Shown: piece by piece, positions 5,625-26,208 of the stretch
Layout of the letters: each line of letters opens with the position of its first letter
Position numbering within the stretch: position 1 is the stretch's first letter
IMG/VR virus record: IMGVR_UViG_3300032086_003911
Span: 1-36,694 of that record
Strand: one strand, 5' to 3'
DNA: 36,694 nt
Source of the DNA: a virus
Program-made: the position numbers and the translations under genes
Notes under the pieces: generated by a model
What the model was told of the DNA's origin: nothing
Database searches by the model: none
What the model saw: only the letters and a program-made list of their open reading frames with translations

Positions 5625-5700
5625 CGTTATCTCCATAAATATGATCCAAAGTTAAATAAATTACTGCTGCAAAAATAAATGCTGCTAAAATTAATGTCAT
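5617..5700 (-). CDS. 27-residue single-span membrane peptide
   Basis: The minus-strand ORF encodes MTLILAAFIFAAVIYLTLDH followed by IYGDNDG. It is one hydrophobic helix of about 18 residues with a short acidic tail. AAACGGGAA precedes the ATG, its start overlaps the upstream stop (ATGA), and its own stop overlaps the ATG of the exported-protein gene. Tight coupling on both sides supports real translation. Function unknown. Confidence 0.55.
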   Translation of the reverse strand: MTLILAAFIFAAVIYLTLDHIYGDNDG

Positions 5701-5993
5701 TTCCCGTTTCTCCTTTTATAATCCCTTAAAGTTTCGTCTCTCTGCCTCATGTATTTATCACGTACAGCTATCACATTAGCGTCGGGCAGTGTTTTTAACC
5801 TACTGGTAGGTATCATAGCGCCGAACATTGTGAAGCTCACGTCGTTAGTTATATGCGTTCTACCACAAATATGGCATTTGACCTCTATACCATCAGGATT
5901 ACGTTCGCCACCTTCGATGTGCACCACCTTACCTATCTCAGCAGTACTACCACAGCATGGCATAGGTCTAGTTATCATTGCGTTGTATCCCAT
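5697..5993 (-). CDS. Small zinc-binding-type protein, 98 residues
   Basis: The product has a CC pair (PMPCCGS, about residues 12-15) and a CHIC motif (about 40-43), which together could coordinate zinc, followed by a basic, helical C-terminus (YMRQRDETLRDYKRR). This predicts a cytoplasmic zinc-ribbon or knuckle protein that may bind nucleic acid. It starts after GAACGGGAGAAAG. It overlaps the preceding small gene at its 5' end and the membrane peptide at its 3' end. Family not recognised. Confidence 0.62.
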   Translation of the reverse strand: MGYNAMITRPMPCCGSTAEIGKVVHIEGGERNPDGIEVKCHICGRTHITNDVSFTMFGAMIPTSRLKTLPDANVIAVRDKYMRQRDETLRDYKRRNGK

Positions 5994-7294: not shown

Positions 7295-7565
7295 TGACAC
7301 CTGTGACACCCCCCGAATGGGGGAGGCACACTTTTAAACCCTTGTTTTATAAGGTTTTGTGACACCTATGACACCTATGACACCTATATATATAAATAGA
7401 AATAGTAAATATAGGCACATAGGCACAGGTGACACAGCGCGGTAAAGTGTTTTTTATTCTCCGTTTCGCTTATTTGCTGTCACAGGTGGCACACGTGTCA
7501 CAGATCCTTTATACATGCGGCTCTTAGCGATGACACCTACTTTTTGAGGTGTCACTGAGGTGTCA
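7295..7565. repeat. TGACACC iteron-like array, candidate origin or operator cluster
   Basis: Eight exact copies of TGACACC occur in 271 bp: plus orientation at 7295, 7304, 7360, 7369, 7378 and 7531, minus orientation (GGTGTCA) at 7548 and 7559. Spacing is 9 bp within the first two clusters and 11 bp in the last pair. Near-matches (TGACACA at 7430, TGTCACA at 7479 and 7496) fill the gaps. An AT-rich tract (about 7384-7414) adjoins the triple repeat. The array lies in the divergent intergenic region between the early minus-strand operon and the packaging genes. Iterons plus an AT-rich tract are the classic layout of a replication origin; an operator array or terminase recognition site are alternatives. 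Confidence 0.65.
7310..7323. repeat. GC-rich hairpin CCCCC-GAAT-GGGGG
   Basis: A perfect five-base all-GC stem with a four-base loop directly follows the second TGACACC copy. No U-tract follows on either strand, so it is not an obvious terminator; it may be part of the candidate origin structure. Confidence 0.5.
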
Positions 7566-14045: not shown

Positions 14046-15188
14046 ATGGCGACTGGCAACCCAGAGAACCAAGAACTTGACTTAGAGTCATCTATGCAAA
14101 GCATTTTAGAAGACATTAAAAGTAGAGACGAAGTCGAGGAAGTACAGGAAGAACAATCGCAAGAGTTAGAGGTAAATGAATCCGAAGCGCAGGAAAGTGT
14201 TAAGGAAGTAGAAGAAAAGGCGCAGGAAAGTGTAGATGAGTCTACAGATGAGAGCGCTGAAGAAGTGGTTGGTGAAGTAGATGAAGAAGTTACTCAGGAA
14301 ACTGCTGAAGAAGTTGTTCAGGAAGAATCTGAGAAACAGAAGTCAGCAATTAGAGCCCCGTCCTCGTGGTCGGCTAAAGCTAAAGCGGCATTTTATGACT
14401 TACCGGATCACATCCAATCGGAAGTAGAGAAGCGTGAAGCAGATTTTCATAACGGTATAGCTAAATATAAAGAAGCTGCTGATTATGGAACTAAGCTTCA
14501 GAAAGTGATTGCTCCATATGAAGCGCAGTTGCGCGCTAACGGACAACAAGCTGATCAAGTAGTAGGGACTATGCTTAACGCAGCCTACAAACTCTCACAA
14601 GGTACACCTCAACAAAAAGCACAGTTTATTAAACAGATCGCTATGGAGTCTGGCGCAGACTTGCAAAGTCTTGTCAGTTCAGGCGATAATACTACTAATG
14701 AACCTAAGAGTGAGTATGTTCAACAGCTGGAACAAAGACTTGCTCAGATTGAGGGTTTTACGCAAAACCAAGCTACCTTGGCTAAGCAAAAGGAGAAAGA
14801 ACGTGTCGATAAACTTATTTATAATTTTAGAAATACGTTAAACGAAGATAAGACACCTAAATATCCATTCTTTGATGATGTTGAAGGAGATATGGCGGTA
14901 CTTATTAACATGGCTAAGCAACAGGGTAGACAACTCTCCCTCGAAGATGCCTACGAGCGGGCTGTAAGAGCTAACCCAGCGACTTATGAAGTCATACGCG
15001 CAACTGAACAGAAGCGAGTTGATGAAAAAAGGCGACAGGAACAGGCTAAGAAAACTGCTAAAGCGAAAAAGATCGCAAGTGTTAACGTGAAAACAACGCC
15101 TAGCACACAGCGAGCTTCGACGCAGGAACCTTTAGGTTCTTTGGACGATACTTTGAGAAAAACTATGGAACGAATTCAATCACGATAG
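14046..15188 (+). CDS. Capsid scaffolding protein
   Basis: This 380-residue protein has an extremely acidic N-terminal 90 residues (Glu/Gln/Val repeats), a conserved core beginning APSSWSAKAKAAFYDLPDHI and a basic helical C-terminus (EKRRQEQAKKTAKAKKIA). That order, acidic disordered head, helical core and basic capsid-binding tail, is characteristic of podoviral scaffolds that direct procapsid assembly and then leave. It lies immediately before the major capsid gene, as expected. SD is GAGG. Confidence 0.85.
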   Translation: MATGNPENQELDLESSMQSILEDIKSRDEVEEVQEEQSQELEVNESEAQESVKEVEEKAQESVDESTDESAEEVVGEVDEEVTQETAEEVVQEESEKQKSAIRAPSSWSAKAKAAFYDLPDHIQSEVEKREADFHNGIAKYKEAADYGTKLQKVIAPYEAQLRANGQQADQVVGTMLNAAYKLSQGTPQQKAQFIKQIAMESGADLQSLVSSGDNTTNEPKSEYVQQLEQRLAQIEGFTQNQATLAKQKEKERVDKLIYNFRNTLNEDKTPKYPFFDDVEGDMAVLINMAKQQGRQLSLEDAYERAVRANPATYEVIRATEQKRVDEKRRQEQAKKTAKAKKIASVNVKTTPSTQRASTQEPLGSLDDTLRKTMERIQSR

Positions 15189-20261: not shown

Positions 20262-21611
20262 ATGGGTAAGAGTAAAGCGCCTCCAGCACCAGATTACACC
20301 GGTCTTGCAAGAGAACAAGGCGTCGCAAATATTGATGCTGCTAGATTAAGCGGTAGGTTAAGCAATCCTAATGTATTTTCACCTTTTGGTCAGAGAACCG
20401 TTCAATACGGTGGTGAAAATGATCCTAATAGATTTAACGCCGGTGCTTATCAAGAAGCAATGCGTCAATATCGTAGCGATTTTGAGAAATGGCGATTAGA
20501 TCCATCTGGTAGACCTCGCGAATTTGGTACAGACAATATGCCGATTAAACCGACTCGTGAAATGTTTATGGGTGGTTTCGATCCGGATATGGTCACAGTT
20601 CGTGATGAACTTACTCCTGAAGCGCAGGCGTTATTAGATCAACAGTTGAGAATTTCGCAACAGTTTGGTGATGTGGCTGAGGGTGGTCTAGGTCGTGTTG
20701 CTAGAGCAATGGGTCAGGATTTTGATCCAAGTATATTGCCTGAAGTAAGAGGTATAGATCCGACAGCATTTGACCGGCAAATTTCCCCTAACGTAATGAT
20801 GCGTGATTTTGATCCAAGTATATTGCCTGAAGTAAGAGGTATAGATCCGACAGCATTTGACCGGCAAATTTCCCCTGACGTAATGATGCGTGAAAGGGTT
20901 GAGCAGGCATTAATGGATCGGTTAAACCCTCAATTACAACAAGCTAGACAAGCTCAAGAAGATGCTTTATTACTACAGGGTCAAGGCCGTGGTGGTAGAG
21001 CGTGGCAAACTGCTCAACAAGATTTATCCCGTAGAGAGTCTGATGCGTTAACTTCCGCAATATTAGGTGCTGGTCAAGAACAGCAGCGTCAATTCGCTAT
21101 GGACTTAGCTAATTTACAGGCGCAAAGACAGGGTCAAGAAGCATTATACGGTTTACAGTCAGCTAATCGTAAACGAGCTTTGCAGGAAGCGTTGGCATTA
21201 CGTCAATTTGCAGGTCAAGAACAGCAGCGTCAATTCGCTATGGACTTAGCTAATTTACAGGCGCAAAGACAGGGTCAAGAAGCATTATACGGTTTACAGT
21301 CAGCTACTCGTGGACGAGCTTTGCAGGAAGCGTTGGCATTACGTCAATTACCGCTTAGCGAGATTAATGCATTACGTACTGGTTCACAACCAAATATTCC
21401 GCAATTTCAACCGTTTCAAGGTTCACAAGTTCAGGCCGCTCCCGTATTTCAAGCTGGTCAAATGGGTTATCAAGCAGCTCTTAATCAGGCTAATGCGCAA
21501 AACGCTGCTCAATCTAGTTTATTCGGCGGGTTAACTGGTTTAGGCGGGTCTGTATTAGGCGCAGCCGGAGCAGCTGGCGGATTTGGGCCATTATTCTCGG
21601 GGATATTCTAA
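20262..21611 (+). CDS. Internal virion (ejection) protein with internal duplications
   Basis: This 449-residue protein starts MGKSKAPPAPDYTGLAREQG with NIDAARLSGRLSNPNVFSP, a signature of internal core/ejection proteins in podoviruses. The body is Gln/Ala/Arg-rich and helical, and the C-terminus is Gly-rich and hydrophobic (LTGLGGSVLGAAGAAGG), suited to membrane insertion during DNA delivery. It contains two in-frame tandem duplications: a 29-residue unit (DFDPSILPEVRG...) and a 47-residue unit (AGQEQQRQFAMDL...). The promoter at 20184 and a weak SD precede it. It would be ejected to help DNA cross the envelope. Confidence 0.68.
   Translation: MGKSKAPPAPDYTGLAREQGVANIDAARLSGRLSNPNVFSPFGQRTVQYGGENDPNRFNAGAYQEAMRQYRSDFEKWRLDPSGRPREFGTDNMPIKPTREMFMGGFDPDMVTVRDELTPEAQALLDQQLRISQQFGDVAEGGLGRVARAMGQDFDPSILPEVRGIDPTAFDRQISPNVMMRDFDPSILPEVRGIDPTAFDRQISPDVMMRERVEQALMDRLNPQLQQARQAQEDALLLQGQGRGGRAWQTAQQDLSRRESDALTSAILGAGQEQQRQFAMDLANLQAQRQGQEALYGLQSANRKRALQEALALRQFAGQEQQRQFAMDLANLQAQRQGQEALYGLQSATRGRALQEALALRQLPLSEINALRTGSQPNIPQFQPFQGSQVQAAPVFQAGQMGYQAALNQANAQNAAQSSLFGGLTGLGGSVLGAAGAAGGFGPLFSGIF
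20718..20891 (+). repeat. Two 87-bp tandem copies inside the ejection-protein gene
   Basis: Copies at 20718-20804 and 20805-20891 encode 29 residues each and differ at essentially one base inside the unit (AAC versus GAC, Asn/Asp). In-frame, so reading is maintained. Confidence 0.9.
21072..21353 (+). repeat. Two 141-bp tandem copies inside the ejection-protein gene
   Basis: Copies at 21072-21212 and 21213-21353 encode 47 residues each and differ at a few bases (AATCGTAAA versus ACTCGTGGA near the end of the unit). They lengthen a Gln-rich helical segment by one full unit. Confidence 0.88.
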
Positions 21612-24471: not shown

Positions 24472-26208
24472 ATGCCTTTTAACGGTTCAGGTACTTACAC
24501 TCTCCCAGCAGGTAATCCTGTTGTTAACAATACTGTTGCGAGCTCTACGGTTCACAACAACACTAATAGTGATATTGCCACAGCGTTATCAACTTGTATA
24601 GCCAAGGACGGTCAGAGCACACCAACCGCTGATATACCGATGGGTGGTTTTAGTCTTACTGGTTTAGCAGACGGCGCAGCATTACAGGAATCCGTTAATG
24701 TAAGGCAGTTACAGAATAACGGTGCTATTACGTTAACAAGTGTATCTGGCACTAATACTATTACTGCTACCGTATCGCCTGTTCCCGCAGCTTATGCGTC
24801 AGGGCAGATTTTTGTTTTTGAGCCTGCGGCCAATAATACGGGTGCATCGACCATTAACATTAGCTCATTAGGAGCAAAAGACATTTATCTAAACAATGCC
24901 GCAATTGGTGCTGACGTATTGGTTAGCGGCCAACCTGTGGTTATTCGTTATAACGGTACTCAATTTGAAATCATTGGAAAGTCTGATTTTGCAAGCTTAA
25001 ACGCTGCCGTTAATACTTTTGCGGGTAATGTGACCGTGAACGGTGCACTTTCAGTAGCAGACGGCGCAGCATTACAGGAATCCGTTAATGTAAGGCAGTT
25101 ACAGAATAACGGTGCTATTACGTTAACAAGTGTATCTGGCACTAATACTATTACTGCTACCGTATCGCCTGTTCCCGCAGCTTATGCGTCAGGGCAGATT
25201 TTTGTTTTTGAGCCTGCGGCCAATAATACGGGTGCATCGACCATTAACATTAGCTCATTAGGAGCAAAAGACATTTATCTAAACAATGCCGCAATTGGTG
25301 CTGACGTATTGGTTAGCGGCCAACCTGTGGTTATTCGTTATAACGGTACTCAATTTGAAATCATTGGAAAGTCTGATTTTGCAAGCTTAAACGCTGCCGT
25401 TAATACTTTTGCGGGTAATGTGACCGTGAACGGTGCACTTTCAGTAGAAGGTAATACAACAATAGGAAACGCGGCAGGCGATACTATTACTTATAATTGT
25501 GAGACCGCGACAGTTAACACAAGTTTAAGTTTTAATTCGGGTCAATTCTTGATTGCTTCAGGTGGGGATATTTCTACTACCGGAGGGTTAACGGTAGCGT
25601 CAGCTTCTACATCTGCAACTGTTAATCTAGGCAACTCGGGAGGGAGTTTTTATAGTCAGGTAATACAAGACGCTGCAACGACAGGAAAATTAAGATACAA
25701 CAGTTATGCGGCGAGCGGCTCTGCTCACGGGCACAGATGGGAAATAAATGGTACAGGGGTAATTGAAATAAACTCCGGCGGAGATTTTTACCCAGTAACA
25801 GATAATGCAGAAGAGCTAGGGAAATCTGGAAATAGGTGGTCTGTTGTTTATGCAGCAACAGGAACAATCAACACGTCAGATATGAGATTAAAAACAGAAA
25901 ATGGGGTGGTTTTAGGGTTGGATTTTATTAATAAATTAAATCCGATTTCTTACAAATGGAGAATAGGAAGGAATCGACTAAAAAACGGGATAGTCGTCCC
26001 AGAACCAGGTAAACGTCGCCATTGGGGTTTTTCGGCTCAACAAGTTAAAGAAACATTAGATAGCTTAGGTTTAGATTTTGGGTGTTGGACGGTTGCGGAC
26101 GATGGTCAACAAGGGCTTAGGTACGATCAGTTTATTGCACCAATTGTAAAATCATTACAGGAAATCAACGAACGTTTAACAATTCTTGAAAATAACTCCA
26201 AAGGGTGA
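24472..26208 (+). CDS. Tail fibre/spike with C-terminal S74 chaperone domain
   Basis: This 578-residue protein has an N-terminal repeat-rich region with LADGAALQESVNVRQLQ, typical of trimeric fibre stems. The C-terminal 110 residues carry the peptidase S74 intramolecular chaperone pattern: NTSDMRLKTENG near residue 470, then FINKLNPISYKW, WGFSAQQVKETLDSLGLD and a final coiled coil SLQEINERLTILENN. The chaperone drives trimerisation and self-cleaves at the Ser-Asp site. A perfect 130-residue tandem duplication lengthens the stem. The SD is GAGGTGCG. It is the likely receptor-binding protein and host-range determinant. Confidence 0.85.
   Translation: MPFNGSGTYTLPAGNPVVNNTVASSTVHNNTNSDIATALSTCIAKDGQSTPTADIPMGGFSLTGLADGAALQESVNVRQLQNNGAITLTSVSGTNTITATVSPVPAAYASGQIFVFEPAANNTGASTINISSLGAKDIYLNNAAIGADVLVSGQPVVIRYNGTQFEIIGKSDFASLNAAVNTFAGNVTVNGALSVADGAALQESVNVRQLQNNGAITLTSVSGTNTITATVSPVPAAYASGQIFVFEPAANNTGASTINISSLGAKDIYLNNAAIGADVLVSGQPVVIRYNGTQFEIIGKSDFASLNAAVNTFAGNVTVNGALSVEGNTTIGNAAGDTITYNCETATVNTSLSFNSGQFLIASGGDISTTGGLTVASASTSATVNLGNSGGSFYSQVIQDAATTGKLRYNSYAASGSAHGHRWEINGTGVIEINSGGDFYPVTDNAEELGKSGNRWSVVYAATGTINTSDMRLKTENGVVLGLDFINKLNPISYKWRIGRNRLKNGIVVPEPGKRRHWGFSAQQVKETLDSLGLDFGCWTVADDGQQGLRYDQFIAPIVKSLQEINERLTILENNSKG
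24665..25447 (+). repeat. Perfect 390-bp tandem duplication in the tail-fibre gene
   Basis: Bases 24665-25057 and 25055-25447 are identical on comparison line by line, with a 390-bp period. The junction shows a short TAG microhomology (TTTAGCAG, CAGTAGCAG, CAGTAGAAG). The unit is exactly 130 codons, so the frame is kept. Complete identity means a very recent event or an assembly artefact. Confidence 0.95.

Follow-up and report, generated by a model that had tools for sequence, protein, structure and literature searches.

The stretch of DNA analysed here (the window) corresponds to a virus record 36,694 bp long, in which genes for a terminase (PF04466), a portal protein, a major head protein, an SSB and a DNA polymerase were found together with a VapE-like helicase domain. 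The portal protein matches 10 phage records at 26.7-35.7% identity, among them Myxococcus phage Mx8, and the relatives of the window's phage genes suggest that the phage is short-tailed. In addition, a RecE-like exonuclease is encoded according to a PHROG match, the Pfam match being to DUF3799 only. At the window edge, positions 1-1281 show VapE-like domain and primase/helicase PHROG matches. The window also carries, at 7360-7387, about three head-to-tail repeats of a 9-bp unit (TGACACCTA) with more TGACAC motifs close by, an array that is possibly an iteron or operator cluster. A weak 24-bp tandem repeat (3.2 copies, 66% matches) lies at 14257-14332 within the ORF at 14046-15188, and is also present in two contigs of other records, L003 and L004.

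The gene under study, at 24472-26208, lies on the + strand, as do all features of the window described below, and encodes a protein of 578 aa. Its assignment as a fibre gene in the first-pass annotation is supported by a Pfam Peptidase_S74 domain and by PHROG tail-fibre and tail-spike matches, and the protein presumably binds the receptor. The N-terminal region (aa 1-64, 24472-24663) is the probable virion-attachment end. Together with the compact domain that follows it (the first bead, see below), the N-terminus is 44-48% identical to prophage fibres from Pandoraea iniqua and Nitrosovibrio, and aa 1-130 are 48% identical to the protein of Stenotrophomonas phage BUCT555. In a by-eye comparison, the gene just upstream of the fibre in the Pandoraea locus resembles the window's upstream gene. 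The distal part (about aa 326-468, 25448-25875) is presumed to be receptor-binding from its position between the second bead and the chaperone; a weak End_tail_spike match at aa 416-468 (23.1 bits) stays under the Pfam gathering score of 25. The Peptidase_S74 domain (chaperone of endosialidase; PF13884, 38.9 bits, cut-off 22) occupies aa 469-533 (25876-26070) and has the PDB relatives 7y5s, 4uw8 and 4hiz. When the fibre gene was compared with phage records by BLASTN, the only match was one of 52 bp at aa 453-470, the edge of the S74 domain, in four Salmonella phage records.

Tandem Repeats Finder reports for the window a repeat at 24665-25447 with a period of 390, 2.0 copies, 100% matches and 0% indels, and base-by-base comparison at an offset of 390 gives 393 identical bases, from 24665 to 25057. 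The perfect 390-bp tandem duplication claimed by the first-pass annotation is thus confirmed, as is its description as two identical copies of 130 codons: copy 1 (24665-25054) and copy 2 (25055-25444) have zero differences in 390 bp, both breakpoints fall in the same codon phase, and the ORF with the duplication remains open over its 578 aa. This is the sole exact direct repeat of at least 99 bp in the window. For comparison, exact direct repeats of at least 50 bp with a period of 30-2500 were found in three of 114 control phage or prophage loci (1.46 Mb; L007-L038, L056 and L120-L200, a set made without shorter-flank versions of the same contigs and without the window's own virus, L001-L006, L039 and L119). 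The longest exact run in these controls is 110 bp, and therefore the 393-bp run is far beyond chance. The base-by-base comparison also bears out that the trinucleotide TAG is common to both junctions, its trailing occurrence being at 25445-25447. However, among randomly chosen breakpoint pairs at a distance of 390 bp, 7.7% share at least 3 bp, so this microhomology is a weak mechanistic clue, and we rejected it as proof of mechanism.

AlphaFold2 predicts for the unit one confident beta-domain at about aa 85-170, with pLDDT block means of 92-97 over most of the domain, and low-confidence linkers on both sides. For a two-copy fragment, the AlphaFold2 monomer model contains two confident domains with undefined mutual orientation (pTM 0.41). 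The domain was compared with known structures using a profile, A3, of 53 sequences, namely the window and 52 of 60 listed bead segments (92 segments were collected, 20 were dropped as redundant and 72 were kept, of which these 60 were listed); a set designated A5 comprised 23 relatives and the window. Profile A3 matches residues 236-325 of the tail fibre gp47 of Pseudomonas phage Pa193 (PDB 9b45) at E=2.8e-22, whereas the window unit by itself reaches only E=0.016. The same protein ranks first in Foldseek (E=3.1e-4, probability 1.00, TMq 0.43, rmsd 4.2, for a model that includes flexible linkers), and it is the only significant solved relative of the bead by profile and fold. Residues 1-340 of Pa193 gp47 are described as beads on a string (PMC11042391), and by position the matched region is the last of these stem beads. 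Judged by the profile and the predicted fold, each unit appears to hold one compact beta-domain related to the Pa193-type stem bead, and a bead profile matches the window protein at aa 89-172 in copy 1 and at aa 219-302 in copy 2. Since the domain lies wholly within the 390-bp unit and both breakpoints lie in the low-confidence linkers, the duplication adds one whole bead with its linkers. The chain in front of the chaperone is lengthened from about 338 to 468 residues by simple arithmetic, and the earlier statement that the duplication lengthens the fibre stem holds in the sense that the unit is a stem element.

The first-pass annotation had named the presence of a single-copy form in relatives as a check on the duplication. 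A scan of both strands for the fibre N-terminus covered 91 loci, made up of phage records, prophage loci and 79 viral loci selected because they carry the bead. It gave 34 ORFs that match the first 84 residues, or 32 distinct ones when L201 is counted together with L199, and L202 with L198, each pair being one and the same place. Twenty-four of them have one bead, two have two beads and six have none, although one of these six, L200, has a bead in another frame; in L202, L203 and L204 the N-terminal match is on the other strand. Accordingly, one bead is found in 24 of the 26 ORFs that combine a related N-terminus with a bead, including all the closer N-terminal matches (E below 1e-11), and two diverged beads in the other two. 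These two exceptions, L044 and L045, have the same coordinates and scores as each other and a weaker N-terminal match. The best N-terminal matches with one bead are L206, L042, the Pandoraea and Nitrosovibrio prophages and BUCT555; the best without a bead are L203 and L207. Irrespective of the N-terminus, 81 of 85 bead-bearing ORFs have one bead and four have two diverged tandem beads. These ORFs are stop-to-stop segments in forward frames, some of them cut by contig ends, from 79 loci (L040-L118) that were selected for having the bead, being the best 80 of 233 relatives minus L039. The prevalence of one bead in both surveys suggests that one bead is likely the ancestral state. The diverged two-bead ORFs lie in L043 (two such ORFs in a row), L044 and L045, and three separate bead matches were seen in L104. 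In the three pairs that were compared the beads are 36-66% identical (36% in L044), and the double beads are spaced by about 97-104 aa, against 130 in the window; by these comparisons, tandem doubling has occurred before in the bead family.

About 4 kb upstream of the bead duplication, a phrog_6121 virion-protein gene (20262-21611) contains two further in-frame tandem duplications, both diverged. One has a unit of 87 bp (29 aa; 20718-20893, 98% matches) and the other a unit of 141 bp (47 aa; 21068-21349), whose copies differ at four sites. Contig L003 has both duplications. Contig L004, part of another record, matches the window over 20,744 bp with four SNPs outside the repeat, and keeps the 87-bp pair while its 141-bp unit is single. 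This single copy combines the base of copy 1 at site 4 with those of copy 2 at sites 99, 104 and 105. A crossover within the identical run of 94 bp would leave just such a copy, and so would an assembly collapse at that place. We rejected the reading that the 141-bp duplication descends directly from a single copy like that of L004, since the four copy differences would have to arise while the contigs came to differ by four SNPs in about 20.7 kb. In the distant relative L034, the second 141-bp copy is absent in the alignment. With three duplications in 36.7 kb, the window lies above the controls, where three of 114 loci had such repeats; the comparison is rough, as short-read assemblies break at them. 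The other exact repeats of at least 50 bp, those of the controls, are at 4844-4904 in L142, 7141-7290 in L173, and 5634-5743 and 6471-6522 in L195, and their periods (54, 69 and 138, 102, 42) are all multiples of three.

An assembly error had been put forward as the alternative to a real duplication: the genome would have one copy, and the assembler would have traversed a spurious loop twice. At 393 bp, the perfect repeat exceeds the usual short-read length, and its copy number is not resolvable from short reads alone. However, a graph loop requires k-mers of the repeat-to-repeat junction in the reads, and a second record bears on this point. In viral_contigs, a collection from which very near records may be left out, the repeat-end pattern matches only L003 (IMG/VR record 3300031841_000338), which matches the window over 13,107 bp with three SNPs and must be a separate assembly in view of these SNPs; by the record names and the SNPs, the two records come from different samples. 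L003 stops exactly at window position 25057, the last base of the exact repeat. In a forward-strand de Bruijn graph built from the window with k set to 99 or 127, the only out-fork is at 25057/25447 and the only in-fork at 24665/25055, and neither fork exists in a one-copy control graph at these k values; at k=55 and 77 there are extra forks from the upstream duplications. The end of L003 at the out-fork indicates that both continuations were present in the reads of that sample, which implies that the tandem junction is present in a second assembly, and this end fits both a fixed and a mixed copy number. By arithmetic, the chance that one of four contig ends falls on a given base of 36,694 is about 1e-4. 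The junction itself was found, among the four records searched, in the window only and not in L003; meanwhile, neither the exit-junction pattern of a one-copy form of the same virus nor a DNA polymerase query for that virus found a match in viral_contigs, with the same proviso about very near records. With a near-identical contig of another record stopping at precisely the fork that the junction creates, we consider an assembly error quite unlikely. Chimeras do arise in library preparation or amplification, for example whole-genome amplification, but random chimeras would not recur at the same base-exact junction implied in two separate records, nor do they explain a length of 390 that preserves the reading frame, and such an origin seems extremely unlikely.

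The first-pass annotation had called the event very recent. It is true that no substitution separates the copies, yet zero differences in 390 bp limit their divergence only to less than about 0.8% (rule of three), which constrains the age weakly, and the junction seems to be shared with the second record. As the bound is about 30 times the SNP density between the contigs (about 0.02%, 3 in 13,107), the duplication may predate the split of the window and L003 strains. It might even be old and held identical by gene conversion. In favour of this are the phage's RecE-like exonuclease, as annotated above, and the tandem double beads that exist elsewhere, which in L044 and L045 likewise follow a related N-terminus. 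However, both upstream duplications in this genome have diverged, the closer N-terminal relatives with a bead have one, and the double beads elsewhere are about 97-104 aa apart instead of 130, which leaves an old, converted duplication unlikely. A refinement compatible with a genuine duplication is that the population is mixed, with one-copy, two-copy and perhaps higher-copy genomes coexisting and the duplication labile instead of fixed. This would explain why L003 breaks at the fork without running through; in addition, the 141-bp duplication of the same virus is single and crossover-like in L004, and an isolate of phage EfV12-phi1 gave 1,021 spanning long reads with 0 to 4 extra copies of its own fibre duplication (PMC6365445). 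On the other hand, a fixed two-copy genome would break the assembly at the same base, and the single 141-bp copy of L004 could be an assembly collapse, so we give this refinement an even chance.

Given the exact in-frame repeat, its breakpoints outside the domain, the mostly one-bead relatives and the end of L003 at the predicted fork, we consider it likely that the window records a genuine in-frame tandem duplication, in a natural virus population, of one stem bead with its linkers in the fibre or spike (presumably a trimer) of a short-tailed phage. The extra copy would go back to slippage or illegitimate recombination while the phage DNA was being replicated. In each trimer, two beads would then follow one another after the N-terminal attachment region and ahead of the distal part, so that the chain would lengthen before the chaperone while the distal part and the S74 chaperone would stay unchanged. 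The 393 bp of perfect homology would let recombination raise or lower the copy number, and for this reason genomes with different copy numbers may well coexist. An effect on reach or host range, as suggested by the first-pass annotation, is plausible; the likely benefit would be in reach or geometry past surface polysaccharide, and a neutral duplication is also conceivable. Three in-frame tandem duplications in 4.8 kb (87, 141 and 390 bp) and one copy number that differs between contigs four SNPs apart over 20.7 kb might be taken to indicate that the lineage gains and loses such duplications in its virion genes unusually fast, but this is doubtful; if it does, the number of beads would set fibre length, and this trait could switch rapidly in nature.

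The locus is a likely case, in uncultivated phages, of a fibre stem gaining one whole bead, which is the step that would yield the diverged tandem beads of other phages. Moreover, it suggests that the exact end of a contig can serve as support for a tandem duplication in a public assembly even when no reads are at hand, and evidence of this type would enable surveys of fibre-length variation.

Compared with known systems, the event is probably ordinary in kind, with parallels in the fibre duplications of EfV12-phi1, the OP1-like phages and T4. As described for EfV12-phi1 (PMC6365445), an in-frame tandem duplication within a putative tail-fibre gene precedes the part for a predicted carbohydrate-binding domain, and its copy number varies in populations as well as within an isolate. 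In that description, however, the unit measures 1.8 kb, has no predicted conserved domain and belongs to a myovirus gene of 6.6 kb, and the duplication arose in a coevolution experiment in which infectivity was measured, whereas that of the window is 390 bp, encodes a defined bead and belongs to a short-tailed environmental phage known from DNA alone. The Xanthomonas phages OP1, Xp10 and Xop411 are reported to have small duplications of N-terminal fibre domains that are bordered, at the ends or close to them, by short direct repeats (PMC2248197); these concern three other small domains in about 118 aa, and a link to host range is drawn through OP1 mutants. A duplication in a fibre protein gene is also known from T4 (Tetart et al. 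1996, cited in PMC6365445 and PMC2248197), where, by the title of that work, a small adhesin domain is duplicated and the host range expanded, while in the window the stem is concerned. Pa193 gp47 has beads of the same family as the protein studied here, in a trimeric fibre stem (PDB 9b45; PMC11042391), but Pa193 is contractile-tailed, its beads are not described as a recent duplication, and its fibre model is reported as an AlphaFold prediction that was fitted into the map and refined there to a CC of 0.71. In Alteromonas phage A5, a fibre domain is likewise doubled upstream of the distal head; according to that report, it is a knob domain seen in AlphaFold models, and its doubling is linked with the extension of a separate chaperone (PMC10579305).
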